Source: Pseudomonadota bacterium
GTDB taxonomy: Bacteria > Bdellovibrionota_B > Oligoflexia > Oligoflexales > CAIYRB01
Direction of reading: 5' to 3'
Length of the DNA: 41,904 nt
NCBI GenBank assembly: GCA_026390435.1
Contig: JAPLFY010000106.1
Span: 1-41,904, forward strand
A program made the position numbers and the translations under genes. This document shows positions 1-41,796 of this stretch, piece after piece. Below the pieces are notes generated by a model, which saw only the letters and a program-made list of their open reading frames with translations, had not been told where the DNA came from and did not search any database. Position 1 is the stretch's first letter. The number at the start of each line of letters is the position of its first letter.

Positions 1-59
1 CAAACTGAGAACCTAAAGGACCGTCATCTAACCCAAGTGAAAATTGCTTTATTCAAATC

Positions 60-180
60 GGAAATGCTACGCAAGCCCAGGCAGCAATACGAATCACAAT
101 CGGCTCTGACATTGTCATAGAATACCCGGTCACTGCTGATCCAGGCCAGCTTGCCAAACTGATTCGGAGTTTAAAATGCA
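60..180 (+). pseudogene. IS66-family TnpA (OrfA) C-terminal relic
   Basis: A plus-strand frame reads an Ile-rich segment, then SDIVIEYPVTADPGQLAKLI, then RSLK. This fits the C-terminal end of IS66 TnpA proteins, which typically close with a short beta segment, 'DP..LA.LI' and 'RALR'. A TGA lies upstream in the same frame (6-8) and no start codon or helix-turn-helix region is visible, so only the tail survives. The frame stays open to a TAA at 276-278, but similarity ends near 180. The call rests on remembered family pattern and the adjacent tnpC relic. Confidence 0.4.
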
Positions 181-186
181 ATCTTC

Positions 187-590
187 CTAATGCGCCTGGC
201 GGAGTACCTCGAACTCGCTGGCGACCTTTAAATCCGCCTGATTTGGAAGATCCACTGCATATTGATAAGGAGTCATAAGCTCCTCAGCACGCGCAGATCT
301 AATTTCCACCTGGAGCATGTATGTACGAGGCTCGACTTTTACTGCCTTGCAACTCGCGATGATGCTATAAAACTTCATCGCCACATCAGCGCCGTCGATC
401 GACCTGAAACCCTGAAAATTATTGCGTCCCATCACAGGAGCGCGAAGTGCACAGCTCCGCTGTATTATTATCTAAGGGCACGACGCTGTGATTCAGGAAT
501 TGATGAAGGACATACTGTTGCTCCCTAGCGACGTGCCTACTGTCAGTAGCGATACGGCCGATCTCATTGATTGAGATCGCCATTCCATCA
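187..590 (-). pseudogene. IS66-family transposase TnpC C-terminal relic, frameshifted
   Basis: Reading the minus strand gives INEIGRI, then VLHQFLNHSVVPLDNNTAE, and after a one-base frame change near 450, ALRAPVMGRNNF, FYSIIASCKAVKVEP and EELMTPYQYA. This is the order at the end of IS66 DDE transposases: a 'PLDNNAAERALRP' block holding the catalytic Glu, 'GRKNW', 'YSLIETAKANGLEPYAYL' and 'LLPW.YA'. The frameshift falls inside the catalytic block, and the segment between INEIGRI and the NN block is shorter than in intact enzymes, so the gene is dead. The 82-residue open frame at 187-435 is its last part. It faces the tnpA relic tail to tail, unlike the co-directional tnpA-tnpB-tnpC of intact elements. 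Confidence 0.7.
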
Positions 591-704
591 AAGAAGCGCG
601 AGGATCAGTTTGACCAGCTGGACGATCGTGTGAAGCAGCCTGACCACTGCATTAGCGCCCTGGAGGTTTCGGTCAAGAATCATCTGGCGGAGCATGATGG
701 CTAG
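551..704 (+). pseudogene. Coiled-coil protein fragment, unrecognised
   Basis: A plus-strand frame without a start codon reads SKKREDQFDQLDDRVKQ, a short break, then ISALEVSVKNHLAEHDG and TAG at 702-704. The heptad-like spacing of Leu/Val/Ile suggests the C-terminal end of a coiled coil. It lies among IS66 relics and overlaps the tnpC relic antisense. It could be debris of any coiled-coil gene or a chance frame. Confidence 0.2.
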
Positions 705-718
705 CAGGGGTGTTAGTT

Positions 719-781
719 TCGGATGCGTATGAGGGTGTTTACCTGTACCTAAACAAGCGGCGATATCTTCACATAATCAGC
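719..781 (+). pseudogene. Possible IS66 TnpB (Orf2) relic
   Basis: The plus strand reads SDAYEGVYLYLNKRRYLHI. IS66 TnpB proteins contain a 'DP..G.LFLF.NRRRDRIK' segment, and the acidic residue, Gly, aromatic/hydrophobic run, Asn and RR are in matching order. Only about 20 residues match and nothing before or after continues the family, so this is a weak call that leans on the other IS66 debris nearby. Confidence 0.25.
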
Positions 782-862
782 CACTTAGTCCCGCCGACTT
801 TCGCATCATCTCAAGACTTTACTGCCCAGCACCGACACCCATAAAGGGGGGTGGAGGTAGGT

Positions 863-1246
863 ATGGACTCACAGCAAAAAAAGTTTAGAGATACGACTAG
901 GGAACTAGGTCAATTCTTCAAACGGGTTGGTCAAATCTGGATTTACGAAGAGCTTATGTTTCTTGGGATAGAGCCTGAGACACTCGCTGGGAGGTTCAGA
1001 TCCGAAAGCCTACATCTATTGCAAGAATTATGTGCGAAGGAACCTACGTTCCATATCATTAGCTGCGAAGATTATAAGATTTACAATAAGTACATTCCGA
1101 ATGCTAATGGCTATTATCTTGCCGATGGCGATAAGGATCCAAGCCTAATGGTCGACCTGCTATCACGGCTAACTGCCGATGAGTTCCTGCAGGTCGGGCA
1201 CACAATGCTTCCGCCCATAGTTGGAGAGATCAAACGCAGTGGCTAG
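863..1246 (+). CDS. Unrecognised protein A, copy 1 of a duplicated convergent pair
   Basis: I do not recognise this 127-residue protein. It has no signal peptide or membrane segment and looks soluble and cytoplasmic. Its paralogue at 2561-2950 is about 53% identical by eye. The conserved core is near residues 65-90: HIISC, one residue, D, then KIYNKYIPNAN and YYLADGD. The C-terminus shares a DE-x-LQ-x-GH-x4-PI-x-G-x-IK pattern. I chose ATG 863 because GGAGG ends five bases upstream and the paralogue starts at the matching MDS; GTG 851 would add four residues. The last 78 nt overlap antisense the end of protein B copy 1. A relic third copy lies at 2063-2200. Conservation of the full frame between diverged copies argues it is translated. 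Confidence 0.7.
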   Translation: MDSQQKKFRDTTRELGQFFKRVGQIWIYEELMFLGIEPETLAGRFRSESLHLLQELCAKEPTFHIISCEDYKIYNKYIPNANGYYLADGDKDPSLMVDLLSRLTADEFLQVGHTMLPPIVGEIKRSG

Positions 1247-1519
1247 GCCGAGTTCCAATTTACGTTTCTTAATATATTCATAAGATATTCGGGCCTCGTA
1301 AAATTCGAGCATAACTCGGCCACTGTTGTACTCCTCAGAATTTTCTCCGTACCAGCGCCAATAAAAAAGCTGAAGGTAGGAGAATAAAGCCCTTGCGTCA
1401 AAATTATCCTCATTGCTGAAGTCAAATACAAATTTAGTTACGAGCTCAATTTCCTTGCTGTCAAATTGGTAAACAGGCTTGTTTGAAGATGTGTATCCGA
1501 CAAGAGATGGCGCTTTCAT
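1169..1519 (-). CDS. Unrecognised protein B, copy 1, convergent with A
   Basis: A 116-residue protein of unknown function with no signal peptide or membrane helix. The paralogue at 2858-3217 shares about half its residues: PSLVGYTS at the N-terminus, a central ED-x-FDA with FSYLQ and YWR-x-YGE, and a C-terminal YGRK-x-CVP-x-LQELI. The start ATG has GGAG eight bases upstream on the minus strand. The last 78 nt (26 codons) are antisense to the end of protein A, and the C-terminal YGRK/LQELI block is encoded inside that overlap. The same neighbour in the same convergent arrangement occurs in both copies, which suggests the two products work together or are co-regulated. Aromatic-rich and mildly acidic; an immunity or antitoxin-like role is conceivable but nothing in the sequence proves it. 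Confidence 0.65.
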   Translation of the reverse strand: MKAPSLVGYTSSNKPVYQFDSKEIELVTKFVFDFSNEDNFDARALFSYLQLFYWRWYGENSEEYNSGRVMLEFYEARISYEYIKKRKLELGLATAFDLSNYGRKHCVPDLQELIGS

Positions 1520-1546
1520 GACTAAGGCTCCAGGGTTTTATTAGCT

Positions 1547-1575
1547 AGTCGCTGGCGCGAAAAGCGCCAGCGACT
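1547..1575. repeat. Perfect 12-bp inverted repeat (hairpin)
   Basis: The arms AGTCGCTGGCGC and GCGCCAGCGACT are exact reverse complements separated by five bases (GAAAA). The hairpin sits just upstream of the protein B copy 1 start and has no T-run on either side, so a classical intrinsic terminator is unlikely. It could be a regulatory hairpin or the remains of a mobile-element end. Confidence 0.6.
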
Positions 1576-1605
1576 ATCCTGAGCGATAGCGAAGGATCGC
1601 GACGA

Positions 1606-1773
1606 TTACACATCGGACGGCCGACCGGGAATCTCATCGGATAGGTCGCGGAGTTCGGGATTGACTGCGTAGACAAGCGCGTCCTTTTTAGCACGATTCA
1701 GACCTTTCAGCCTGCGCTCTCGCTCCCGATTGCGCCATAGTATCGCCTTCCCATTTGCCAAAGGCTTACCGTT
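1606..1773 (-). pseudogene. Unrecognised basic protein fragment
   Basis: A minus-strand frame of about 55 codons reads KPLANGKAILWRNRERERR, then GLNRAKKDALVYAVN, then PGRPSDV and TAA at 1606-1608. An in-frame stop lies just before KPLANG and the only candidate start is a TTG without a ribosome binding site, so it looks like the 3' remnant of a gene. The Arg/Lys-rich helix followed by an acidic tail suggests a small nucleic-acid-binding or antitoxin-like protein, but I cannot assign a family. Confidence 0.25.
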
Positions 1774-1884
1774 TCAACAGTAGCTCACAATGTCCAACGA
1801 CATCCACGCAGAGTTGGCCTATCATCCTGCAAAAACCAAAGGAATTTGACGCGTTGCAGCGAGGGCACAACAGACATGGGGTAA

Positions 1885-1930
1885 ATGGGGTCAGTCACTG
1901 GCTCTAACCTACTGTAAACTCGATTTCGCC
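1885..1930 (+). repeat. ATGGGGTCAG-type dispersed repeat, copy 1
   Basis: ATGGGGTCAGTCACTGGCT followed by CTAAC recurs with one mismatch at 2206-2229. Weaker similarity (a shared AACTCGAT block) runs on for about 20 bases. Related cores, ATGGGGTC followed by A or G and then GGCACT, occur near 23.32-23.45 kb. Short repeats of this kind are often REP-like sequences moved by IS200-like (RAYT) transposases; no such gene is in the window. Confidence 0.6.
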
Positions 1931-1993
1931 TAAATTGTGAATAGTTACATTTCTTATCTATAGCGACATCTTAGATATAGTGCTCGCCACGTT

Positions 1994-2024
1994 ACCTCAA
2001 CACCTCAACACCTCAACACCTCAC
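1994..2024 (+). repeat. Short tandem repeat (ACCTCAAC, about 4 units)
   Basis: The octamer ACCTCAAC is repeated three times exactly, followed by a partial fourth unit ACCTCAC. It lies about 40 bases upstream of the truncated third A copy, in a stretch that otherwise resembles the leader regions of the two full A copies (shared CTCGCCAC and CTCAAC words). It probably arose by slippage. Confidence 0.7.
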
Positions 2025-2062
2025 CGCCAAGCGCCGATACATCTCCTATGGTGGAGGTGGGT

Positions 2063-2200
2063 ATGGATCCCCGGCGCAAAATCTTCGATGAGACTTCCAG
2101 AGAAATTCATGCTTTTTTCAAGCGAGTCGGTAAAATATGGATTTACGAAGAACTTAAGTTTTTTGACCTTGAGCCTCAGATGATGACCGGCGAATTTTGA
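2063..2200 (+). pseudogene. Truncated third copy of protein A
   Basis: The frame opens with MDPRRKIFDETSRE and continues with FFKRVGKIWIYEELKFF before stopping after GEF. About 25 of 45 residues match the start of A copy 1, and the leader GTGGAGGTGGGT-ATG is nearly the same as in copy 1. Compared with copy 2, one extra base in the GAATTTTGA stretch shifts the frame and creates the TGA. Six bases later an ATGGGGTCAG-type repeat begins and all similarity to A ends. The central HIISC/KIYNKY core and any B partner are missing. Confidence 0.75.
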
Positions 2201-2205
2201 GGTCG

Positions 2206-2251
2206 ATGGGGTCAGTCACTGGCTATAACATCCCGATAACTCGATCTCTCA
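2206..2251 (+). repeat. ATGGGGTCAG-type dispersed repeat, copy 2
   Basis: It matches 23 of 24 bases of the repeat starting at 1885 and then shows patchy similarity through AACTCGAT. It lies exactly where the truncated A copy loses similarity to its paralogues, so insertion or recombination at this repeat may have removed the rest of that gene. Confidence 0.6.
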
Positions 2252-2560
2252 GAGATCAGCCCGAGCCTGCGAAATTTCACGCTGAGTATTTTGACCGCAG
2301 CGATCTTGAGAGAGATGAGAATCAGATTCCCGAGCTAGAAAAGACAGTCAGCCATCCGCAGCAATCATGCTTGCGTTTGTCTGCGATCGATTGGTTGTCG
2401 CAAAGTTGCCGTAATCATGTCATGTCCTGAGATTCCTTCGCATTCGTCCAATGATTAATGCCTACCGGCGTGGTGCTGCCAAGATTCATTTAACCAACAC
2501 TCGCCACTGAAAACTCAACGTCTCGACCCCAAATGCCGACCACTCCATAGTGGGGGAGCT
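2252..2560. other. Intergenic stretch with no recognised gene
   Basis: A 77-codon plus-strand frame crosses this stretch but starts inside the dispersed repeat and resembles nothing I know. The last about 60 bases are the leader of A copy 2, sharing CTCGCCAC and CTCAAC words with the leader of the truncated copy. I see no clear promoter hexamers. Confidence 0.4.
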
Positions 2561-2950
2561 ATGGATTCACGCCGGAAAAAATTCGATGACACTGCCAATG
2601 AGCATAACCGATTTTGCAAACAGGTAGGGCGCGTCTGGCTATACCACATCCTGAGTTTTCTTGATTTAGAGCCCGACGCACTCTCCGGGCATTTTGAGCC
2701 ACGGAAGGTACAGACTCTCATCGACTTCTGCGCGGAAAATCCCGAATACCACATCATTAGCTGCAACGATCACAAGATATACAACAAGTATATCCCCAAC
2801 GCTAACTGCTACTACTTGGCAGACGGTGACCAAGATCCGGATCTTTTGTTTGATTTTTCAATGAGATTGAGCGTCGATGAGCTCTTGCAAATAGGGCACG
2901 CAAAGTTTTCGCCCATACTTGGACAGATTAAACACGGTCGCGATTCTTAA
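2561..2950 (+). CDS. Unrecognised protein A, copy 2 of a duplicated convergent pair
   Basis: A 129-residue soluble protein, paralogue of the gene at 863-1246. It keeps the MDS start, the KVG-like and W-x-Y motifs, the HIISC..D..KIYNKYIPNAN core, YYLADGD-x-DP and the C-terminal DELLQIGH and PI-x-G-x-IK patterns. A purine-rich GGGGGAG immediately precedes the ATG. Differences from copy 1 are spread along the protein, so the duplication is not recent. The final 93 nt overlap antisense the end of protein B copy 2. No known domain recognised. The conserved Cys, His and Asp residues of the core could be functional, but no catalytic pattern is evident. Confidence 0.7.
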   Translation: MDSRRKKFDDTANEHNRFCKQVGRVWLYHILSFLDLEPDALSGHFEPRKVQTLIDFCAENPEYHIISCNDHKIYNKYIPNANCYYLADGDQDPDLLFDFSMRLSVDELLQIGHAKFSPILGQIKHGRDS

Positions 2951-3217
2951 TACTTTGCTCTGTTGGTTCCGGAAATCCGTCGTCACTTTGTGGCTATGTA
3001 AGCCCAGCATCACTGTACTTTGCATATAGTCGTTCGAATCTTCTCCATATCTTCGCCAGTAAACGACTTGCAAATAAGAGAATACTGCAAAGGCATCGAA
3101 GTGATCCTCAGGTGTGAAGTCAGACACCAAATCCACCAGAGTATGCATATCTAACGTGTCAAACTGATGAATAGGCCTCCTCAACGAAGTATATCCAACC
3201 AGGGAAGGGATAATCAT
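2858..3217 (-). CDS. Unrecognised protein B, copy 2, convergent with A
   Basis: A 119-residue protein, paralogue of the one at 1169-1519. The shared blocks are PSLVGYTS, HQFD-like QFD, ED-x-FDA, FSYLQ, YWR-x-YGE, VML, LS-x-YGRK and LQELI. It ends three residues later than copy 1, which lengthens the antisense overlap with A to 93 nt. No ribosome binding site as clear as that of copy 1 is seen. No signal peptide or membrane segment. Function unknown; the constant pairing with A is the main clue. Confidence 0.65.
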   Translation of the reverse strand: MIIPSLVGYTSLRRPIHQFDTLDMHTLVDLVSDFTPEDHFDAFAVFSYLQVVYWRRYGEDSNDYMQSTVMLGLHSHKVTTDFRNQQSKVLRIATVFNLSKYGRKLCVPYLQELIDAQSH

Positions 3218-3601
3218 GGCTGTCGTAGTCCGTTGTAATTTTAATTAAGTCGCAGCACGCACAGTTGCTACCACCCGCGCGTGAGCACTGCGAGCGACAT
3301 GGCATCACTGGTCCGCCCTAGCCGACCAACAGTGACATCTCTTCCAACCCCGCCCACCCAGGTCATTGCCCCCCCTCGTCCCCTCCCAAACTGACCATTC
3401 AACCCGCCCCGCGCCCCCTGGAGGCCAGTTTTAGCCTTGGCATACCCTGATCAGACGGATTTAATTTCAATTATATCTGCTGCTTAAGTAATTTTTGCAT
3501 ATGTCAAACTTGTCCTCAAGATTTCCTCCGTTTATGCCGAGGTATGACCTGAGAACACGGGTCTAGTTCGACTGACTGGCATTTTCCGAGGGCGTGGAAA
3601 G
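3218..3601. other. Intergenic region upstream of the fibre operon
   Basis: No gene is supported here. The first half is pyrimidine-rich, with runs of C on the plus strand (about 3340-3410). The second half (about 3445-3500) is A/T-rich, with ATTATAT and TTGCATATG words that could hold the promoter of the lipoprotein-fibre operon. I cannot pick a convincing -35/-10 pair. Confidence 0.3.
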
Positions 3602-4348
3602 ATGACCTTTGGCTTCAACAAATTTACACCGACTTCGCTGCATGCAGCGACTGAGGTGTCCTATTGTCGCCAACTGCTCTCCATAGCCGCAGTCTGCGTT
3701 GTAGCTGTTTGTCACGTCTCGTGTCGTAAACAGACTGTTTCTATAAACGGTCAAAGTGTGAGTTCTACGATCAGTAAGATCAAAGCAAAAACTGCTAAAA
3801 ATCTGCCAGATGGTCCAAAGGGAGCTCCGATTGAATTGCCGAATGCTTTGATTGCGAACCGGACGCACTATCAAACACGAAGCGTGGTGACGTTAAAAAT
3901 CGAGAGCAGCGAAGTATCAGCGGGTGCACCGATTCGGCTTATCTCGGAGACCACACTTAAGGATCTACTCAGTGGTATCGCCGGATCTTTGGGACTTCAG
4001 GAGGCTTCCGGTGACTCGGTAGGGCAGGGTTGGGACACGCAGTTCTTATCTGATGACAGCGGTTTCATTCTGAGGCTGTATCCTACAGATCCCGCGATTG
4101 CTGGTGCGCTTTCCTACGGCGAAAACAAATTGAAACTGCTTGTCGACGAAACAACCGTGCCGAAGATGGCAGTCAATCAAATTTATCTGCAAGATTTTCC
4201 TTACGTGACGATGAGTTTCTCCGCATTCGATACACCAATGCAACAGCAAGGGGGTTTTCAAGCACAGGTTGATTACATTACTGGGTCTACTATCACCAAC
4301 GGCACCTATCAGCTAACCACTGGTAGTGTCGGTCTCCCGAATTGGTAG
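3602..4348 (+). CDS. Predicted lipoprotein paired with the giant fibre protein
   Basis: A 248-residue exported protein of unknown function. A hydrophobic stretch [17 protein letters not shown] ends in a Cys with Ser and Val before it, an imperfect lipobox (His at -3). From ATG 3602 this leaves an unusually long N-region. A GTG at 3656 would give a normal 22-residue lipoprotein signal, but neither start has a well-spaced ribosome binding site, since the GGAAAG touches ATG 3602. The mature part is Ser/Thr/Gly-rich with predicted beta character and ends in GSVGLPNW. Its stop lies inside the next gene (overlap 4342-4348), so translation of the two is probably coupled. A role in anchoring or secreting the fibre is inferred from position only. 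Confidence 0.65.
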
Positions 4349-7300
4349 GGGGGTTGAACATGCGCCACATCGCTTGCATTCTTGGCCTGCTCTACGCGAC
4401 GGTTTTAACCGCCAGCGTAGCGTTGGGGCAGTCGTCGTTCGATTTCGTGGTGAGTGGTCGGATGACAGAGGCAAACGGTAAGCCAGTGGTAGGCCCTGTG
4501 GCGCTTGAAATTTCCTTTTTCCATGACAATCCTGGCACTACTCCCATACTAGCTGTGACGCAGGGTTTTGAAGCTGTGTCCCTGCAGGAGGGCGTCTTTC
4601 AGGTTCGTGTTACCTTGAGTGGCGAAGACTATGGAAAAGTGTTTCCCGACGTAACACAGCCAGTATGGTTTCAAGTAAGTGACTTAACGCACGGCGGAAC
4701 TCCTTATCCACAGCAACAGGTGGTAACGGTACCGTACGCAGCAAGAGTGCCTGTGGACGGTAAAAGCGTCAGCTTCGGCAGCGACGGAAAGCTGATGGTA
4801 GGCCCGAGCACAGGGCCATCAGTGAATCAGTTCTTAACTAAGGACCCTAGCGGCAAAATCGTTTGGGGTACACCCAGTCCTAACTCATCTGCTATTCAAG
4901 GGACAAGCGTACGCTCGGTGTCGCCAGCTCTGGGCCAGGTGCTCAGTTACGACGGCACTATGTGGACGCCGGCCTCTACTACCGTGACTGCAGTGCCCCC
5001 ATTGGCAGTGTCAATGGACGGGTCCACTCCCGTGGTGGCGATGACTCAGGCCACTGGTATTAGCGATGGCTACATTAGCTCCATAGATTGGATGACATTT
5101 TGGTATAAGCAAAATGCGATCAGTTCAGCCTCGAACATCAACATGGGGACCTTGTACACCTATAAACAAAACGGTGTTGAGGTTAAAGCATACGGTAGCG
5201 ATCCTGGTCAAACTGGTGAAGTTCGGTTCAACAGCTTGTCGCCAGGCAATTATGTAGGTTTCAAGGCACCAGATTACGCGATAGGACCGAGGATTTGGAC
5301 CCTACCAGAGACGGATGGTTCGACTGGTCAGCTTTTACGTACAGACGGTGACGGTAAATTGGGGTGGGTGTCTTTACCCATAGTGCCAGTGACCTCGGTT
5401 GCGGGGAAAACGGGAACAATTTCTCTGAACACCAGCGATGTTTCCGAGGGTGCTAACCTATACTTCACCGAGTTTAGGGCTCAATCGACAGCGAGATCTT
5501 CGGTGTCGGCCTATGCTCCTTTAGTTTACTCGCCGACAACGGGATCGATGTCGATTTCGCAGGCATCCGCGGTATCGTCCGGTTATCTATCCGTTCTAGA
5601 CTGGCTTAATTTCAACAGCAAAGTGGGCGCGGTGTTGGCTGGGCCAGGTGTGTTGGTGAGTACTGTCGGCAACAACTCCACCATAGCCTTGCCAAATGTT
5701 GGATCGCCCGGTGTGTATACGAAAGTGACCACGGATCTGCAGGGACGGATTATCGCCGGCACAACCTTAGTACCAGGAGACATCCCCAGTCTATCTGGCG
5801 CTGTGATCACCAGTGGCACCGTGTCTAGAACTTACGGTGGTACAGGTGTGAACTCCGCAGCCACATTCCCAACATCGGGCGTCGTGGTGACTGAAGATGC
5901 AGTAGAAACTTTGACTCGCAAGACTCTGAACAGTCCGGTGATTGCCGCGGGCACTATGAATGGCGCGTCGTTGATTGGTGGCGCCACGACTATTGACACC
6001 ACTGGCACCGTTGCCTCGGGCGCTACAACGGTGCACGGGCCAGTGACTATCCAAAGCACTAGCGACCTACCCAATACTCTTTCATTTAACGATAGCACCA
6101 ATACCAAATCGCTTTCGTTCAAAGCACCAGCCACATTAGCTGCGTCGCTCTCTTGGACATTGCCACCGGTGGAAGGTGGCGTCGGGCAATTACTTGGTAC
6201 CAACGGCTCGGGGACTCTGGGTTGGTACTCGGGTGCTAGGCCTTCTGGTGTAGCTGGCGGAGATTTAGACGGTCAATATCCGAATCCAAGTTTAGCTAAC
6301 TCGGGCGTCGTCCCTGGTGCCTACGCCAAAGTTACGGTTGATGCCAAAGGGCGTGTCGTAACTGGCGGTTCGCTTGAAGCAGCCGACATACCTGGGATCC
6401 CAACGTCTTTGATTCAAACTGGGATGCTTGGTGTCGCCAACGGTGGTACCGGCGTTTCAACTTTTACGGCGAACGGCATACTTTACGGTGGTGGCTCGGG
6501 CAACTTAACATCGACAGCTGCTGGCAGCCCTTATCAGAGTCTTGTTGTTCCATCTGGCGGTGGGGCACCAATTTTTGGTCCGCTGAATCTCGCCCAGCCA
6601 GCTGCCGTCACTGGTTTATTGCCTAGGTCATTGGGTGGTACCGGTGTGCTATCAACGGCAACCTTTCCTGCGTCCGGTGTCGTAGTGACCGAGGGTGCGG
6701 CTCAGACCTTAAGGCTAAAAACTCTGGACAGTCCGCTTATCAGTTCAGCTACCATCGACGGTGCTTCAGTCATCAACACATCTGGTAACATTAGTACCTC
6801 CGGAACCCTGTATTCAGGTGCTCAAACTGTTGCAGGAGATATCACCATTCAAGGCAACGGATACTCGTCCAGTCGCCTTAAAATCAACGATCAGACTAAT
6901 TCGAATTCCCTGTCATTTAAGGCTCCAAATAACTTGGTAGGATCTGTCGAATGGACATTACCCGGTGTGGACGGAGTGGCTAATCAGCTACTAACCACAA
7001 ATGGTGGCGGAGAGCTTAGGTGGGTATCTGGTGCGGCGCCTACTGGGGCCGCTGCTGGTGATTTGACCGGCGCATATCCAAATCCTACTTTAGCCCCAAG
7101 CGGAGTAGTCCCCGGAACTTATCCAAGAGTGGTGGTAGATTCAAAAGGGCGCGTCACTACGGGTACTACGCTAGCAGTGAGTGATATTCCAAGTTTGCCA
7201 GCATCCATTATCACGAGCGGTATCGTACCGGTGACAAACGGTGGTACCGGCGCTAGTAGTCTGCAAGCGAATGGCGTTGTACTCGGAAATAATACGGGTG

Positions 7301-10300
7301 CTTTAACAGCAACACCGGCAGGATCGGCATACCAAATTTTAGCTGTGCCAAGTAGCGGTGGGACGCCTTATTTTACTGCCCTAAACTTATCCCAGGGAGC
7401 TGCAGTTACTGGCGTACTGCCGACATCTTTGGGCGGTACCGGCGTAATATCAACGGCGACTTTTCCAGTAAGTGGCACCGTCGTCACTGAGGCCGGCGCA
7501 GCTACACTGACCAATAAGACGCTGAATAGTGCGGTTCTAAACTCTCCGATGATTGATAGTGCAACGCTCACTGGATTCACCAACGTGAATACTACCGGTA
7601 CGATTGTATCGGGCGCCCAAACAGTGAACGGCAATATTAAAATTCAGGGTAACGGGCTTACCGCCAATCAACTGATTTTAAATGACCTGGGTGCGACTCG
7701 TTCACTAGCATTTAAAGCCCCAGACGTACTCTCGGGCTCAGTAGTGTGGACCCTGCCGGCAACGGACGGTACCGATGGGCAATTACTTATTACCAATGGA
7801 TCAGGAACTTTGGGTTGGGTGTCAGGAACTCGGCCTTCGGGTAACGCCGGTGGTGACTTGACGGGCATATATCCAAATCCAACTCTAAAGGACACCGGTG
7901 TCTCTGCCGGTATTTATACAAAATTGACAGTGGATGCTAAAGGTCGCACTCTGGCAGCTACGACTCTTTCCGTGAGCGATCTACCGAAGATTCCTGCCGG
8001 TCAAATTGATAACGGCATAGTTGCTGTCGACTTTGGTGGTACGGGAGCAAGCCGCTTTACCAAGGACGGAGTGCTGCTGGGTAACGAGGCCGGTAACATT
8101 TTGTCGACTGCGGCTGGGTCGCCTTATCAGAGTCTGATCATTCCAGCGGGAAGTACGACTCCTACATTTGGTGCGGTGAATTTGGCTCAATCCGCTGCAG
8201 TAGTCGGAATCCTGCCAAAAACACTCGGTGGTACCGGCATCAGCTCGGGCGCTGTGTTCCCAACAACTGGCACTGTGGTGACCCGTGAAGCTGCTGAACT
8301 TTTACAGAATAAGACCATTTCTAGTCCCCTGATCACTAATGCCACTATTAACGCAGCATCTGTAATTGGTGGGTCTAGCGTAATCAACACCACTGGAACC
8401 ATCACTTCAAGTAGTCAGGTGGTCAACGGTGATGTGTCCATCCGTGGCAACGGTGCAACTGCAAATAGATTATTCCTTAATGATTTAGGATCAGAGCGAT
8501 CAGTGGCATTGAAGGCTCCTGACACTCTCTCTAACTCGGTAACTTACACCCTGCCAGGCGCCGATGGGTCGGGTGGGCAACTGCTGATGACTAATGGTTC
8601 AGGCACTCTAAGTTGGATTTCTGGCGCTGCTCCAACCGGCACTGCTTCGGGTGATTTGACCGGTTTATATCCTAGTCCCGAACTGACAAACACCGGAGTA
8701 AATGCTGGAACCTTTACCAAAGTAAAAGTGGATTTAAAAGGTCGTGTGTCTCTCGGTACCACTCTTGATGTAGCCGACATCCCAAGTCTACCTGCTTCGC
8801 AGATTTCTACCGGGATCCTTGGTGTCACTCGTGGTGGTACCGGTGCGGGTAGTTTTAATGCAAACGGCGTCGTCGTCGGAGGCAATTCCGGGACATTAAC
8901 TAGTACGACGAGTGGGACAGCATTCCAAAGTTTAACTGTTCCAAGCGGCGGCGGAGCTCCAGTCTTTTCGGCGGTAAATTTATCTCAGTCCGCAGCTGTC
9001 ACCGGCGTTTTGCCTCAGTCCCTGGGTGGTACCGGGGTTATTTCGACTGCGACATATCCGAGCTCAGGCACTGTGGTTACGGAAGCTGCGGCGCAAAACT
9101 TAACTAACAAAACTCTCACCAGTCCAGTCATTAACGCTGGCTCAATAGCTGGTGCGTCAGTGATCGGCGGCTCGACCGTAATCAGTACTTCAGGAACCAT
9201 CACGTCTAGCACGGTTTCCGTGAATGGAGATGTCGTTATCCGCGGTAACGGTGTTACGGCTAAGGCGCTGATGCTCAATGATCTTGGGAACAGCAAGTCC
9301 ATCTCGTTGAAATCGCCAGATGCATTGGTCAACTCAGTGGTCTGGACTCTACCAGGTGCAGACGGTAGCGTTGGTCAGCTTTTGACCACCAGTGGTAGTG
9401 GGATATTAAGCTGGGTCTCAGGAGCGAAGCCGACCGGACTAGCGGGTGGTGATTTGACTGGTGCGTACCCAAATCCAACGTTGCCTGCGACCGGTGTGGG
9501 TGCAGGTCAATATCAGAAAGTTACGGTTGATGAGAAAGGGCGAGTGATCGCAGGTACCTCGCTTGACGTGGCAGACATTCCGGCACTGCCAATTAGTAAA
9601 CTTGGGTCTGGCAGACTAGACGTGTCGTTGGGTGGTACTGGTACTAATAGTTTTACCGAAAACGGTGTTTTGCTAGGCAATAATTCTAGCAATATTTTCT
9701 CAACTGCCGCGGGCTCAGCCGATCAGATTTTGCGCGTCCCATCGGCAGGCGGGATGCCTTCGTTCGGGGCTATGGATTTGTCGAAGGGCGCGGCAGTTAC
9801 CGGAGTCTTGCCGACGGGCCTCGGTGGCACCGGAGTGGTTTCGACCGCCACCTATCCGACCACTGGGGTAGTTTCTACTCGCGCTGGTGTGGAAACCTTC
9901 ACCAATAAGACTTTGACCAATCCGCTTATAAACGGCGGCACCATAGCCGGATCTGCGTTGATAACCGGTGATACCGCCATTGATACCGCTGGTACCATCA
10001 GCGCCGCGGCTACAACTATCGCTGGTGATATAACCATTCGCGGCAATAGCGTCACACCTAATAAACTTGTGTTTAACGATAAAGGTAGCGTCAATTCTGT
10101 ATTCTTAAGAGCTCCGGCCGATGTGACCGGCACTTCCATAGGATGGACGCTGCCCAATTCGCTCGGTGCTAATGCTCAGCTCTTAACGACGGATGGAACT
10201 GGTGCTTTGAGCTGGGTTTCCGGTGCCGCGCCTACAGGAGCAGCAGGTGGCGATCTAACGGGCAATTATCCCAACCCGACCCTGGGGATTACAGGCGTCG

Positions 10301-13300
10301 GTGCTGGAACTTATACAAAGGTTCGGGTCGATCTGAAGGGACGAGTGCTTGAGGGGACTTCCCTTGCAGTAGCTGACATCCCAAGTCTGCCTGCTTCGAT
10401 CATCAACACGGGCCTACTTGGGGTGAACCGTGGTGGTACAGGAGCGGCAGCCTTCAATAGTCTAGGTGTTGTCTTTGGCAACAGCGGCGGAAGCTTGTCG
10501 AGCACGTCTGCGGGTGGGGCTTACCAAAGTTTAACGGTGCCAGCGGGTGGTGGCGCACCGGTATTTAGTGCCGTCAACTTATCGCAAAGTGCTGCCGTCA
10601 CTGGTGTGCTGCCGCAAGGTGTAGGTGGTACGGGTGTCAGTGGCAACGCTACATTTCCGACTAGCGGTGTGGTCGTAACGGAATCTGCAACAGAGACTTT
10701 AACTAATAAAACGCTGACGGCTCCGGTGATTGCTTCCGGTCTCATCAACGGGAATTCTGTCATCGGTGGTAACTCAACGATCAATACCACCGGCACTATT
10801 AACGCTGCAGCCACCACAATCAACGGTAACCTAACGGTACAGGGCAGCGGCACTTATGCGAACAAGTTGGTACTGAACGACAAAGGCTCTAGCAACTTTG
10901 TAGCTTTAAAAGCCGCTGAAAACATGTCTGGTCAGGTCACCTTTACCCTCCCGAGTGCTGACGGCAGTTCTGGTCAGTTGTTAGTGACAAGTGGCACTGG
11001 AGCTTTGTCTTGGGTTTCCGGTGCGTCGCCTAGTGGAAACGCTGGCGGTGATTTAACTGGTGCCTATCCTAGCCCAACTCTCACCGCTACGGGTGTTTTG
11101 GCTGGTACCTACCAGAAGGTCGTTGTCGATCTCAAAGGACGGGTATTAACCGGATCAAATTTGGCGGTCGCTGATATTCCGACCCTTCCAGCTTCCATCA
11201 TCGGATCCGGTGCAGTAGCCGTTGCTAACGGTGGTACAGGCTTCAATAGCTTCACCAGCAATGGTGTCATCATCGGTAACGGGCCGAGTAATTTGTTAAG
11301 TACCGCGGCAGGTGCCGCGTTCCAAAGTTTGCGAGTCCCAAGCACTGGTGGCGTCCCATCGTTCGGGTCCATTGATTTATCGCAGACTGCTGCAGTTACC
11401 GGTATTTTGATGCCTATCCTTGGTGGTACCGGTGTCAGTTCTTTTGCCACCTTCCCAACCTCGGGTGTGATTGTTACGCAAAATGCTACCGAAACTCTGT
11501 TCAACAAAACCCTGTCTAGTCCGATTATCTCGGCTGGTACCATCTCGGGAGCCTCGCTCATAGGCGGGACCACGAACATTGCAACGTCAGGGACAATCAG
11601 CGCAGGTGCTACCTCAATTGTAGGAACGCTAAATATCAAAGGCACCGGCTCAAGCACTAATATATTAGCATTTAGTGATAGCACTAATTCTAAGTACGTG
11701 GGTTTCAAAGCTCCCGACGTGGTCCCAGACCACATCATTTGGACGCTTCCGGCAACCGACGGCGGTGTGGGTCAAATGTTGACGACTAACGGGTCCGGAG
11801 GGCTTAACTGGGTATCGGTGGCGCAAAATATGGGTGCTGCTGGTGGAGACCTGTTTGGTGCATATCCAAATCCAACATTGATAGCCACCGGAGTTACCGC
11901 CGGCACCTACCAAAAGGTTTCTGTCGATAGTAAGGGCCGCGTTTTGTACGGGTACTCTTTATCGGTACTCGATATTCCTAGTCTACCTGCTTCGATTATC
12001 GGATCCGGGGTGATACCGGTAGCTAATGGTGGTACCGGCGGAGCTTCTTTCCCAAGTAACGGTGTGGTGATAGGTAACGGCTCAGGTAGTCTAACTGGTA
12101 GTGCTGCCGGTGCAGTCTATCAAAGCCTGACAGTTGGAGCTGCCGGGGCACCTTCGTTTAGCGCGGTCAATTTGTCTCAGTCCGCAGCGGTGACTGGAAT
12201 CTTGCCAGCGACTGCAGGCGGTACTGGGACCATGTCAAACGCCGTCTTCCCAACTACTGGCACTATCGTTACAGATGCCGGCACTGCGACTTTGACAAAT
12301 AAGACCTTAAACTCAGTCGTAATCGCGTCCAGTACCGTGAACGGTAATTCTCAGATCGGCGGAGCGACAGTTATCAATACCTCCGGCACTATCACCTCCG
12401 GGTCGACCACGGTCAATGGTAGCGCGACTATCCGTGGTGATGGTACTTTGGCAAACAGATTAGTGTTTGGTGATAAGGGGACCGGCTTTTCCGTATCTTT
12501 AAAAGCTGCAGACACATTGGCAAGCTCAACGGTATTCACGTTGCCAGTAGCCGACGGCACTTCCGGCCAGATACTCTCCACCAATGGCTCCGGTGCTCTT
12601 GGCTGGGCGTCGTCAGCACCGCCGTCTGGTGCAGCTGGCGGTGATTTGACGGGAGCTTATCCAAACCCGAGTTTAACGCCATCTGGCGTAACTCCTGGGA
12701 CTTATCTGAAAGTCATGGTTGATGCCAAAGGGCGGGTCACTGATGGGACTAATTTGTCGGTATCAGATATTCCAAGTCTGCCCGCATCGATCATTGCGTC
12801 TGGGATCATTCCAGTTGGGAACGGCGGTACGGGGGCTTCGACATTCACTCAATACGGTGTCCTTTTTGGGAACAATATTGGCAGCATCAATTCCACAGCT
12901 GCTGGTTCGGCATTCCAAAGTTTGACAGTACCGGCCGATGGCACCGCGCCTTATTTCAGCGCGGTAAACTTAGCGCAGCCAGCAGCAACCACAGGAATAC
13001 TGCCTAGTACATCGGGTGGTACTGGGATCAGTTCTGTGGCCACTTATCCAAGCTCTGGCATCATTGCGACCAGGGCTGCCACCGAAACGCTGACTAATAA
13101 GACCTTAACCTCTCCGCTGATTAACAGTGGTACTATTGCTAGCGCGTCTTTGATTACTGGTTCGACAGTCATAAACACCACCGGAAGCATAACCTCTGGT
13201 GGGGTGACATCTAATGGTAACGTTCAATTAAAGAGCTCCAACGGTAGTACGGCTAGCCGCCTCGTATTTAGCGATAGTTCGGCGACGTTCTCACTATCAT

Positions 13301-16300
13301 TTAAGTCTCCTGATACACTCTCTACGTCGGTAAATTGGACTTTACCTGGTACCGATGGTGCTACTGGGCAACTACTCACTACCAATGGTTTGGGTACTCT
13401 ACAGTGGGTGACGGGAGCAGCGCCGAACGGCACCGCTGGCGGTGATCTCATTGGTAGCTATCCAAATCCAACGCTGGCAACGGTCGTGACGGCCGGCACC
13501 TACCAAAAAGTCCGCGTTGATCAAAAGGGTCGCGTGACTGCCGGCATGAGTCTACTCGTCGCCGATATCCCAAGTTTACCAATTTCTATCATCGGATCGG
13601 GAGTGCTTAGCGTCGGCAATGGTGGTACCGGAGCTGATAACTTCGCCAACAACGGTGTCATGCTTGGCAACGGCACCGGTAACCTACTATCGACCGGCGC
13701 CGGTACTGCCTATCAAGTGCTGACGGTGCCGAGTAATGGTTTAGTGCCATCATTCGGAGCGCTAAATTTAAGCCAGTCAGCTGCAGTGACAGGTATTCTC
13801 CCGACATCTGTGGGTGGTACCGGAGTTACCTCCTCAGCGGTATTCCCAAGTAGCGGTACTATTGTGACCCAGTCCGCAACAGAGACTTTGCTGAATAAGA
13901 CTTTAAGTAGTTCCGTATTCAATGCTGGCTCGGTCATAGGGGCGTCGGTGATTGGTGGTTCGACGACCATTAACACGACGGGTACAATAACTGCTGGCTC
14001 AACGACAGTCGGCGGTAGTTTGACTGTTCAGGGCTCCGGACTGAATTCGAATCGTTTAGTGCTGAACGATAAAGGATCTACTTACGCCGTCTCTTTAAGA
14101 GCTCCAGACACGCTGTCATCTTCGGTAGCCTGGACCTTGCCGGGTAACGACGGCATTAACGGTCAACTTCTAAGCACCAACGGATCGGGGGCTTTAGCCT
14201 GGGTTTCCGGAGCTACTCTGATTGGCAACGCCGGTGGTGATTTGGTGGGCGCTTATCCAAGTCCTACTTTGACGACGACTGGTGTGACAGCGGGCACTTA
14301 TACAAAAGTTACCGTCGATGCAAAAGGCCGCGTGCAGCTCGGTGCTAACTTGAGTGTGTCAGATATCCCAAGTCTACCTGTGTCGATCATCGGTTCAGGA
14401 CAATTGGGTGTTGCGAATGGTGGTACCGGATTTAGCAGCTTTACTCAGAATGGAGTCGTGCTTGGTAACGGTGTCAGTAATTTGTTTACGACAGCGGCTG
14501 GTACTGCTTACCAAAGTCTGGTGATACCAAGCAATGGTGGAGCACCATCATTTAGCGCTGTAAATCTTGCTCGCTCGGAAGCGGTCACAGGCATCCTTGC
14601 GACAGCCAACGGTGGTACCGGTGTTGCTTCGTCAGCAACGTTCCCGTCAACAGGCGCAATTGTGACGGATATCAGTACGCAAAATCTGACCAATAAAACC
14701 CTGACTGGTGCAATAATATCAGCAAGTACAGTGAATGGAGCGTCCTTAATTGGCGGCTCCACCGTCATCAACACGTCAGGCTCGATCACAGCCGGTGCGG
14801 CCAACTTAACTGGTGACGTCGGGATCCGCGGTACAGGTTTGGCATCGAACAGGTTGATGTTTAATGATCGTGGTAGCACGAATTTTGTCGCCTTTAAGGC
14901 CCCAGATGTCTTGGCATCTTCCGTTGTGTGGACGTGGCCAGGTAGCGAGGGAAGTAGCGGTCAACTGCTCACCACTAACGGATCCGGAGTTTTGGGTTGG
15001 GTTTCTGGTGCGGCTCCGAGCGGTGCAGCAACCGGCGATTTGACGGGTAATTATCCGAGCCCAACTCTAACCACAACTGGAGTTGCGGTTGGTACTTACC
15101 AAAAAGTAGCAGTCGATCTCAAAGGTCGAGTATATTTCGGAAGCAGCTTAACTGTAAGCGATATTCCAAGTCTGCCTATGTCCATAATTGGGTCAGGGGT
15201 CCTGCCACTAGCCAATGGCGGTACCGGTTCTACTAGTTTCACGGCCAATGGAGTGGTCGTTGGCAATGGCAGCGGAAGTCTCTTCACGACAGGAACTGGT
15301 CAACCATATCAGAGTTTAATGGTTCCTTCTGGTGGCGGTACGCCAGCATTTGGGGCAGTGAATTTAGCGCAGCCTTTGGCGATCACTGGCGTCTTGCCCG
15401 TAAGCGCCGGCGGTACAGGTATAGCTTCCGGGGCAACCTTCCCAAGTTCGGGCGTGATCGTGACACAATCGGCAACGGAAACTTTGATCAACAAAACGCT
15501 AACCAGTCCAGTGATCAGCGCGGGCACGATAAACGGTGCCTCTCTGATCACAGGTACCACTTCGATAACTACATCGGGCGCGATTAGTTCTGGAGCGATC
15601 AGTGCCCTTGGAAGTGTCACTATCCGCGGCGACGGCACCCTAGCAAACAAACTAATTTTGCGGGATAAGGGCACAACGAACTTCCTCGCTCTCAAGGCAC
15701 CAGATTCGCTGGTCAGCTCCACCACTTGGCAGTTGCCTGACACCGATGGTGCCGATGGTCAAATGCTTAAGACCAATGGTCAAGGAATTTTAAGCTGGGT
15801 CACCGGATCCGCACCAAGTGGCAGCGCTGGTGGCGACTTGACCGGAAATTATCCAAGCCCAACGCTCACTACGACCGGAGTGTCGGCTGGTATTTATTCT
15901 AAAGTGACAGTAGATACCAAGGGTCGAGTGAGTGCAGGTACTAGTTTGAGTATTTCTGATATTCCTAATCTGCCGGCTTCGATTATTGTTTCGGGCTCAG
16001 TTGGGGTTGCCAACGGTGGTACGGGCACGGCGTCCTTTAGCACCAACGGTGTCATACTTGGTAACGGGATAGGCAACCTATTCTCCACTTCGGCTGGTAG
16101 TGCATACCAAAGCTTAAGCATCCCCTCGGGTGGTGGAGTACCGACCTTTGGTGCGATTAATTTGGCTCAATCTGCTGCAGTAACTGGTCTACTACCAACG
16201 ACCTCTGGTGGTACTGGTATGGCGTCGAATGCTATCTTCCCGACTGTCGGTACCATTGTTACGCGGGACGCCAGCGAAACTTTATCGAATAAGACTTTAC

Positions 16301-18408
16301 TCAGCCCACAAATTTCGGCTGCGACTATCGACGGTGCTTCGACTATCGGTGGCTCTACCGCCATCAATACAACGGGCACCGCGGCGATGGGGGCTACGAC
16401 TATCGCCGGCAATTTGACGATTTCCGGCACTAACACTGCAGCCAATCGCCTGATTCTGAAAGACAAAGGTCCTACCAACTCACTGTCACTGAAAGCTCCT
16501 GATACGCTGACTACATCGGTGGTGTGGACTCTGCCTGGAAGCGACGGATCGAGCGGCCAACTGTTGCAAACCAATGGCTCGGGTGCTCTGAGCTGGGTGG
16601 CTGGTGCAGCTCCAACTGGTGCCGCTGGTGGTGATTTATACGGCGTTTATCCAAATCCGACTCTGACAACTACGGGCGTTGTGGCTGGTACTTATCCTAA
16701 AGTGGTAGTTGACGCTAAAGGTCGCGTGTCGAGTGGCTTGGCCCTTGCGGTGTCAGACATTCCAAGTCTACCGATGTCTCAGATCGGTTCGGGCACACTA
16801 GCCGTAGGCAATGGTGGTACAGGGAACACTAACTTCAGCTCAAACGGGGTTTTGCTCGGTAATAGTAGCAGCAATATTTTCTCAACCTCAGCCGGCAGCG
16901 CCTATCAGGCTCTAACCGTACCATCCGGCGGTGGCACGCCTTCTTTCGGTGCTTTAAATCTTGGTCAGTCTGCTGCTGTGACAGGAACATTGGCCGTAGG
17001 TAACGGTGGTACCGGCATAGCAACGGCACCAGGTAACGGTAATATTTTGATCGGCAACGGTGTTAATTATACTCTGACTACTTTGACTGCAGGGACTGGT
17101 GTTTCCATCACCAACAGTTCTGGCGCAATCACCGTGGCGGCAACTGCGGACGCCTCTACCAAAGTTAGTAAAGCTGGCGACACGATGACCGGCGCATTAA
17201 CTCTGCCTAGCAACGGTCTGACGGCCGGTACTAACCAATTAGTAGTATCCGGTGGTAACGTCGGTATCGGTACCGCTTCGCCCGCTGCGACCATGCAACT
17301 TTATAAAACTACCAACGATAGTTCAATTTACGAAATATCTAGATTCACTGCATTTAATTCCAGTGCCACTAGCCTTCGAATCCAAGGTGGTAGCTCTGAT
17401 ACTAACTTAGCCTTGCGTCAAGTGAGTTTAGACTCCTACCGTACCGATACAAATGCGGCGCCAATTCTCTTTACGCAAACTGTAAGCGGTGGAACCACTG
17501 AGCGGATGCGGATCGCGGCATCCGGTAATGTGGGCATCGGCGCATCAGCGCCAAATAACAAACTCGATGTGGCAGGATCTCTAGCCATCGGTGCTACCTA
17601 CGGCGGTGGAACCTCGACAAGTGGCAGTATAGCACCGACCAACGGGTTGATCGTACAAGGCAACGTTGGCATCGGGACGACGGCGCCAGTATCGCAGTTG
17701 GATGTCGGCGGTAGTAAATCAGCTGCTCCCAGCCTAACTGGTGCCTATCTAGGATTCTCTAGCCCAACCTTCACCGACAATGCCACTGGGTCAAATTCGA
17801 CCACTGGGAACATGGCATTCAATGCAATAGGCGCCCCGGTCTTGGCTTCGACAAGTGCTGCAGTGATCACGACGAATGCCTACACGGCTTACGTCGCCGG
17901 CGCACCGAGAAAGGGCAGCAACAACACTGTGACCAACGCAGTGGCTTTGGGCATTGGCGCTACAGCCGTCGGTGCCCAGACTAATAGCTACGGTCTTTAT
18001 GTGAACGCACAGACTGGTGCGAACTCTAATTATGCGGCGGTCTTCCAGGGCGGTTATGTGGGTATCGGTACGACTGCTCCAGCAGCGGCCTTGGACGTCA
18101 ATGGCCACGTCGGCAACTCAAGCACAGCGGTGCCAACTCTAAGCAATTGTGGAGCAAGTCCTGTGATTGTTGGTAACGACACTCGGGGCACTGTGACCTT
18201 CGGCACGAGCGCCCCAACTGACTGTACCATCAACTTTGCTACCGCGTACGCCAACACCCCAGTTTGCGTGGTCACGTTCACTGGTGATACTAACATCAAC
18301 ACAGGCAGCTTGAATGTTCGGATTAGTGCAGCCACTTCGCTTGCATTCACGATCAGTCTAGCGTCTGGCCAAAGCTCGATTTCCTTTAACTACATCTGTA
18401 TGCAGTAA
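4342..18408 (+). CDS. Giant repetitive tail-fibre-like surface protein (4688 residues)
   Basis: A secreted fibre. Residues 1-30 form a signal peptide (hydrophobic run ending ALGQSS). Residues about 31-140 form a head domain starting [17 protein letters not shown], like the N-termini of other fibre-like proteins in predatory and soil bacteria. From about residue 495 to 4220 there are 14 tandem units of about 266 residues, each with two GGTG motifs, a NKTL-x-SP segment, a V-x-WTLP segment, one GGDLTG-x-YPNPTL motif, a KVTVD-x-KGRV turn and SDIPSLP. After the array come [15 protein letters not shown], several VGIGTTAP-x4-LDV-x-G stalk turns and a knob with three Cys ([22 protein letters not shown]) ending YICMQ. 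GGDLTG and VGIGT motifs are known from phage tail fibres and large bacterial adhesins. No LPXTG, autotransporter barrel or type I secretion signal is visible, so the export route is unclear. It is translationally coupled to the upstream lipoprotein. Adhesion or prey/host contact is inferred. Confidence 0.85.
5830..17010 (+). repeat. Tandem array of 14 coding repeats, period about 798 nt
   Basis: Anchoring on the GGDLTG-YPNPTL motif gives 14 hits near 6256, 7051, 7849, 8647, 9445, 10246, 11044, 11842, 12637, 13438, 14233, 15031, 15829 and 16627. The separate TFPTSG-VVT motif gives 14 hits from 5862 to 16234 with the same spacing. The period is 798 nt with changes of a codon or two. No two units look identical in DNA: synonymous positions vary widely while the protein motifs hold, and GGTGGTACCGG recurs at most GGTG motifs. 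Confidence 0.9.
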
Positions 18409-40626: not shown

Positions 40627-41796
40627 TTAAATATAGGCCCTGGCAGCTTCTCTTTCAGAGTGCTCAAACGCGGCAATGAATTCTTCGAGTTCTTTGTTGC
40701 TCATATCGGCCTCTTTGCGCCCGACATCCCGCCAGCGACTGACAGCCGCTTCGACTTCACCAAGAATAGTCTTGGCGCGAACGCGAGAAATATTAAAATA
40801 CTTTAGAACAGACCAAAGGGATTCTATACGCGAATCGGGACCGGTCTCTTCTGAAATCCATGTTTTCAGATCGCGCTGGCGATCAGGAAAAGGGTTGATG
40901 TCGAATGCAGGAGCAAGGCGCCAGAGTTCACCGGAGGAGTGAAGGAAGCCATGATTATGCAGATGGTCATCGACGTTGGTGATGAGGATCGAGAAAGCTA
41001 TCCTTCTCCAGAGTTCTTCAATATCGTCCTTCGCCGCCGCGCCATGGATCCTCAGCGCATCGACGATCTCTGTGTAGGTATGAACATCGCCATCTGCGTC
41101 CCTTCCTAGCATTGTTGCGGCGGAAACATAGGGAATTCGCTCTCCGGATTCTGTGCGATCGAATCTTTGGATCACAGCCACAGACACTCCGTCGCTGTCG
41201 ATCAGTTTAGAGCTGGCTGCGCTTATTCCTGCTGCAGTCGCGAGGCGCAAGGCCAAAACCTCCCCTTTGGTTACTGCCCGCGTGTCTTGCACACTGGGAA
41301 ACTTACCTATGGCGAGACGTCCCTCATTATCTAGAAGTGTGCATTTGGGTCTGAGTCCTCCAAGTGAGGTGCCCCTTCCCCGCAGGTAAGCAAGATCCGC
41401 CTCGGTTTCTGTCTGGTTCTCCACTGCCCGAGTCGCAGCAAAAAGCATGGGTAGCTCAAGGATGGGTGGCGTTGTTCTTTGGCCTGACTCAGGTGCAGCG
41501 CGTTGCCATTGGTTGTCGTCCCGCAGTCGCAGGGCACCCATGCGACTCCTATCATCGACTGCAAGCAAAAAATCGAGCGCGTTGGGCGGCGGCAAATCCT
41601 TTCCTCCCTGCGCCCTGATCTGCTCGCGGCGCTTGGCGTGATCGCGCAGGATGACCCGGCGCCCCCAACCATCTGGTTCCGTATCAGCTATGGCGCCGTT
41701 AAACTTGGAGCCATCTTTTGAGGCTTTAAAAAATTGGGGGCCGCGAATCAGCCTAAGCGCCGGTTCTATCGGAAAGTCGGCCAGTACTCCAACCAT
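40627..41796 (-). CDS. HipA-family serine/threonine kinase toxin, N-terminus incomplete
   Basis: Type II toxin kinases of this family phosphorylate glutamyl-tRNA synthetase or other targets and cause dormancy; the partner HipB would normally be encoded just upstream. Seen here in 389 residues: GAIADTEPDGWGRRVI (end of the N-terminal domain), the Gly-rich ATP/autophosphorylation loop GRGTSLGGLRPKCTL, the ATP Lys in AIGKFPS, VIQRFDR, the catalytic NVDDHLHNHGFL and the metal-binding APAFDINPFP. All core residues appear intact. The first ATG at 41796 starts late: upstream codons in the same frame (HGESAFTTNQASGAY) look like more HipA N-terminus but reach a TGA near 41880 with no start codon. The 5' end may be truncated or frameshifted, or an unusual start is used. 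Confidence 0.8.
   Translation of the reverse strand: MVGVLADFPIEPALRLIRGPQFFKASKDGSKFNGAIADTEPDGWGRRVILRDHAKRREQIRAQGGKDLPPPNALDFLLAVDDRSRMGALRLRDDNQWQRAAPESGQRTTPPILELPMLFAATRAVENQTETEADLAYLRGRGTSLGGLRPKCTLLDNEGRLAIGKFPSVQDTRAVTKGEVLALRLATAAGISAASSKLIDSDGVSVAVIQRFDRTESGERIPYVSAATMLGRDADGDVHTYTEIVDALRIHGAAAKDDIEELWRRIAFSILITNVDDHLHNHGFLHSSGELWRLAPAFDINPFPDRQRDLKTWISEETGPDSRIESLWSVLKYFNISRVRAKTILGEVEAAVSRWRDVGRKEADMSNKELEEFIAAFEHSEREAARAYI

Follow-up and report, generated by a model that had tools for sequence, protein, structure and literature searches.

Why should two small genes be held in convergent orientation, their coding ends written into opposite strands of the same DNA, and why should this arrangement be there twice? 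This is the question raised by the start of our window, by which we mean the whole 41,904-nucleotide stretch of contig JAPLFY010000106.1 that was analysed, from a lake-dwelling genus of the order Oligoflexales. The first pair consists of open frame A1 on the forward strand (863..1246, 127 aa, matching the A family profile at E 5e-44) and open frame B1 on the reverse strand (1169..1519, 116 aa), which overlap antisense over 78 nt (1169..1246, both strands), codon facing codon. The second consists of the open frames A2 (2561..2950, forward, 129 aa) and B2 (2858..3217, reverse, 119 aa), which share 93 nt in the same way (2858..2950, both strands). Both overlaps, defined by coordinates, phase and constraint, have exactly the lengths given in a preliminary description of this DNA, and the identities that it had estimated by eye, about 53% for A and about 47% for B, become 54% (E 4e-55) and 48% (E 3e-42) on pairwise comparison; its proposal that the pair was duplicated long ago is likewise supported.

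A few details of the locus deserve mention. The in-frame GTG 851 lies upstream of ATG 863, and we regard the latter as the better start of A1 because GGAGGTAGGT precedes it and because family members begin there. Since the window begins only 850 bases before GTG 851, at the end of the contig, the array may extend beyond it. A third, truncated A copy (2063..2200, forward), picked up by similarity search and profile, preserves the first ~46 codons before a TGA and has no B; it is 53% identical over 43 residues, and its upstream region is of the A1/A2 kind. An Rfam search of window positions 1-4400 gave no match. Downstream of the array come a lipoprotein-like gene (3602) and then a 4688-residue fibre-like protein (4342-18408), and there is no transposase among the 10 larger downstream frames that we scanned. 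These are patatin, DsbD-like, peroxidase, oxidase, mechanosensitive channel, TPR, AAA and HipA genes, which does not bear out the earlier picture of an IS-littered region.

A family found in one order

The pair is anything but a peculiarity of this contig. Single queries found 48 A and 33 B matches in the window genome (4.28 Mb, 153 contigs) and profile searches 48 and 43; 41 of the A genes are near-complete and nearly all of these have a convergent B or B remnant, so the arrangement is not due to chance. In each of five further genomes of the genus there are 4-31 A matches, and the six congeneric metagenome-assembled genomes (MAGs) together hold 138 A/B units, 78 of them intact. Outside the genus, among 58 genomes of the phylum, matches came only from the genomes G014, G010, G040 and G042, which represent three other families of the same order (G040 and G042 belonging to one). 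A B-profile scan of one genome per species across 84,980 bacterial and archaeal species, which depends on one conserved stretch and could therefore let distant relatives escape, returned 14 loci, in three lake MAGs and the Oligoflexales MAG G014 only, and scanning GTDB genomes for an A1 pattern gave no match.

Some copies stand in tandem arrays, one of which, on G004:C34, has at least 11 units, and others are lone pairs amid unrelated genes. The preliminary description had proposed checking whether homologues are always adjacent and convergent: every near-complete A gene of the genus that has an adjacent B (105 of 105) is convergent with it, with overlaps of 66-111 nt that are always multiples of three, and the distances of A and B between units correlate at 0.79. 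The two are inherited as a unit, in keeping with its account of a duplicated pair. Overlaps outside the genus, again all multiples of three, measure 6 nt in G014, 30-33 nt in G040, 30 nt in G042 and 48 nt in G010, the last two being derived from the coordinates of B remnants. At three loci (G003:C99, G003:C166 and G004:C76) an intact A and an intact B, without overlap partners, stand divergently, so the overlap is not indispensable. As to other neighbours, an IS110-type transposase (L089 77-1195) borders a six-unit cluster, and genes of ordinary toxin-antitoxin type lie near some pairs, namely a Gp49-like gene with an HTH partner, an HTH antitoxin-like gene and a HipA_C gene (L096 1314-1905, L102 3412-3726 and window 40630-41796).

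Both genes were initially described as unrecognised, and so they remain: neither had a significant match in Pfam, NCBIfam, PHROGs, PADLOC or PDB profiles. The A protein (127-131 aa within the genus) has an alpha/beta fold in its model (mean pLDDT 86.6; below 50 in the last ten residues of A1), and B, of 112-119 aa, is predicted to form a compact beta hairpin with six helices (AlphaFold2 model of B1, mean pLDDT 93.7). Foldseek comparison of both models with the PDB, and of the B model with viral models, gave nothing below E 0.001. A described anti-phage defence family was considered and rejected, given the empty PADLOC result and the lack of relatives in the phage, plasmid and viral collections searched (phages and viral contigs for A, plasmids and viral contigs for B).

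Upstream elements of the two genes

The two genes appear to be controlled separately. Upstream of A we find a motif resembling the sigma28 (FliA) consensus of Bdellovibrio attack-phase genes, TTAAG-N16-CCGATA (PMC3627812): CCGAWA precedes 83 of 110 A copies (6.4 expected from shuffles), and the full promoter-like YHAAG-N14-19-CCGAWA precedes 51 of the 110 (0.15 expected), as against 0 of 79 B copies. In the window, sequence and motif statistics point to candidate promoters at 811..837 for A1 (TCAAG-N16-CCGACA), 2013..2039 for the truncated copy (TCAAC-N16-CCGATA) and 2515..2541 for A2 (TCAAC-N16-CCGACC), all on the forward strand, those of A1 and A2 both being degenerate. The window genome does encode FliA (285 bits), and assignment of the A promoters to this factor is likely, with the attribution resting on motif likeness since eight flagellin-family genes, taken as a positive control, have no FliA-type motif just upstream. 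Many genes behind TAAAGTTT-N-GCCGATA sites (L243-L262) resemble secreted lipoproteins by eye, a possible FliA surface regulon. A hairpin over the A ribosome-binding site, seen by eye in the subfamily of the window, appears not to be general.

B has an element of its own. GACAT-N13-20-ATGTC lies upstream of 31 of 82 B copies (0.2 expected in shuffles), with a spacing that is always 16 or 17, and upstream of 1 of 109 A copies; the right half, ATGTC, is found in 56 of the 82. Motif comparison places this right half at B2 (ATGTCGCTCGCA, 3289..3300, reverse strand), and B1 has no such element. Genome-wide, the strict GACAT-N16/17-ATGTC has 19 matches (3 for a reversed control), 11 of them at B genes and most of the others inside other genes. 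Two readings of the ATGTC element remain, a bipartite site of this form or a mini-ORF (ATG TCN YTN, encoding MSL or MSF), and it may serve as a leader peptide, a promoter or an operator. Read as mini-ORFs, examples such as those at L110 and L107 would encode MS(L/F)(A/D) and mostly run for 7-26 codons, with variation resembling that of synonymous codons (TCN, YTN). One further element of the B type (L271 1420-1449) sits ~95 nt before a DUF4258 gene, which is followed by a second small gene.

Lopsided decay and the shared coding ends

Among the 138 units, 78 have both genes, 27 have an intact A with B broken or missing, 5 have an intact B with A broken or missing, 18 have neither and 10 are cut by contig ends. 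The 27 against 5 is a marked asymmetry (binomial p 1e-4) that survives removal of near-identical copies (25 against 5, p 3e-4), and in 3 of the 5 exceptions, the divergent loci mentioned above, an intact A stands right beside the B. Thus B is seldom kept without an intact A, and A is often kept without B. The preliminary description had named as damaging to its case a wide occurrence of A without B, or B frames with stops in close relatives, and B is indeed broken or lost, with A surviving, in about a quarter of units; its remnants there, however, are mostly still convergent. CCGAWA is kept at 16 of 27 A genes without B versus 63 of 78 with it (p 0.04).

The pattern of decay suggests that B cannot be kept without A, much like a harmful gene and its antidote, and the earlier guess of toxin and immunity fits it to that extent. 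Our preferred reading, to which we give a probability of about 0.4, is that of a two-gene module, specific to this Oligoflexales lineage and present in many copies, in which B would be costly or harmful and A its antidote, under opposed control. The same asymmetry would also be expected if B simply needs A to work. On that account the two proteins would share a single activity, as two subunits or with B modifying or loading A, such that A is useful alone, B is useless without it and nothing is toxic; B also evolves faster than A and is more easily lost, and the A genes left alone are intact and full-length. We nevertheless consider it rather unlikely, as some 40 divergent paralogous pairs in one genome exceed what a housekeeping complex would need, and the opposed control elements argue against co-production.

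The overlap itself can be examined by asking where substitutions fall. Outside it, A and B are both under purifying selection (median dN/dS 0.19 for A and 0.30 for B, in a set where B was mis-called in a few units). We compared intact units that are 60-97% identical in their DNA (57 comparisons). Differences in A, given by codon position (1/2/3), amount to 0.21/0.15/0.44 outside the overlap and 0.27/0.08/0.20 inside, and those of B to 0.29/0.24/0.46 outside and 0.20/0.08/0.27 inside. Bootstrap intervals of the inside/outside ratios, which are rough because the units share ancestry, lie below 1 for positions 2 and 3 of A and for all positions of B. If a single frame were constrained, its inside values would resemble those outside; the third positions of each frame are instead about halved, so both frames are constrained, as the preliminary description had maintained, and the overlap is constrained beyond either frame alone.

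The direction in which the overlap arose can also be proposed, on the strength of a few outgroup genes. The length of B is about equal everywhere, in the genus and the outgroup alike, overlaps are shorter in relatives, and the A genes of G014 stop where the overlap begins (6 nt) and have no tail; we therefore infer that A gained its last 22-28 residues by reading the 3' end of B antisense, its tail being overprinted onto B codon facing codon. Where B has decayed the remnant is often the overlap alone, which outlasts the rest since the same DNA encodes the end of A. Might the overlap then be a mere by-product, an early loss of A's stop codon having let it run on into the 3' end of B through a frame that chanced to be open, to give a tail that does little? 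The tailless A genes of G014 and the low-confidence last ten residues of the A1 model are what one would expect of this, but A keeps a tail of the same length in copies with decayed B, and the double constraint is more than either frame would impose, so that we regard the by-product explanation as improbable.

Known gene pairs and the possible function of A and B

The setting of the arrays raises one more idea. Those in G002:C3 and G004:C34 lie upstream of orthologues of the lipoprotein and giant fibre genes of the window, and several lone pairs follow or precede fibre genes, an apparent association. In the window the fibre-like protein is a repeat protein that sits behind a 248-residue lipoprotein-like gene, and the window genome has ~24 homologous fibre-protein N-termini, one in a 9481-aa open frame (C24). 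A regulatory toggle, in which one protein or the overlapping transcripts would switch adjacent fibre and lipoprotein genes between life phases, draws on these three arrays just upstream of the same genes, on the several other pairs that directly follow fibre genes and on the many other FliA-type promoters that precede lipoproteins in the genome, but most pairs do not adjoin fibre genes, and no DNA-binding domain or fold could be recognised in A or B. We consider this explanation, too, improbable.

The pair, then, is genuine and ancient, is widespread in its lineage and codes on both strands where the genes overlap. The preliminary description had overlooked the third A copy, the spread to six genomes (138 units), the candidate FliA-type promoter of A, the separate B element and the probably overprinted A tail. 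Under the antidote reading, B would be costly or harmful and A would neutralise it, probably as a protein. During a motile, attack-like phase FliA would make A, whose transcript would also run antisense into B and interfere with its expression, so that the pair would act as an antidote and a mutual-exclusion switch at once.

How does this compare with systems already described? Excludon-type overlapping antisense gene pairs (reviewed in PMC7154746) are similar in that A and B are neighbours whose transcripts should overlap antisense, with one probably under an alternative sigma factor; they differ in that the coding regions of A and B themselves overlap, in fixed codon phase, and in that the family is peculiar to its lineage and present in dozens of copies. 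A coding overlap would of necessity give overlapping mRNAs if both genes are expressed, and our evidence here consists of gene sequences and different promoter-like elements. Type I toxin-antitoxin pairs such as yonT/SR6, where a toxin gene and an antisense RNA overlap at their 3' ends (PMC5848175), share the opposite strands, the 3' overlap and a partner proposed as antidote. Both strands of A/B, however, encode conserved proteins of 112-131 aa under purifying selection, where a type I locus would have a non-coding antisense RNA as antitoxin, and B is a compact helical protein in its model rather than a small hydrophobic peptide. With type II systems the pair has in common that the two genes are small and linked, that a genome has many paralogues and that the presumed antidote outlives its partner, but A and B match no known toxin-antitoxin family and have no shared operon or promoter, being convergent in 105 of 105 cases, each with its own upstream element. 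These two separate promoters, unlike the one common promoter of ordinary antidote modules, are a counterpoint to our preferred reading, and because the layout differs from that which defines the known types we do not file A/B as a toxin-antitoxin system. The bolder notion of a new class of antagonist module, in which the antidote overprints its partner's 3' end so that the two are hard to separate, with opposing phase-specific promoters and ~40 copies in motile, possibly predatory hosts, is one we entertain only tentatively.

Overprinting offers a last comparison. Antisense overlapping genes such as laoB were born in this way (PMC5810103; reviewed in PMC7457138), and A too would have gained coding sequence by reading a gene already present on the other strand, the difference being that A is an existing gene extended by ~22-28 residues, kept across >100 copies, and with relatives known in the shorter state.

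Long stretches of antisense coding overlap are a contested subject in bacteria, as the known cases are mostly isolated and of recent origin. The A/B overlap recurs in >100 divergent copies; relatives show a shorter version, copies with a decayed partner serve as natural controls and the double constraint can be measured. The origin and persistence of overlapping genes are therefore directly testable here. If B is truly a harmful gene and A its antidote, this would be an unusually expanded system of its kind, and one linked to the motile phase in an order that has received little study.
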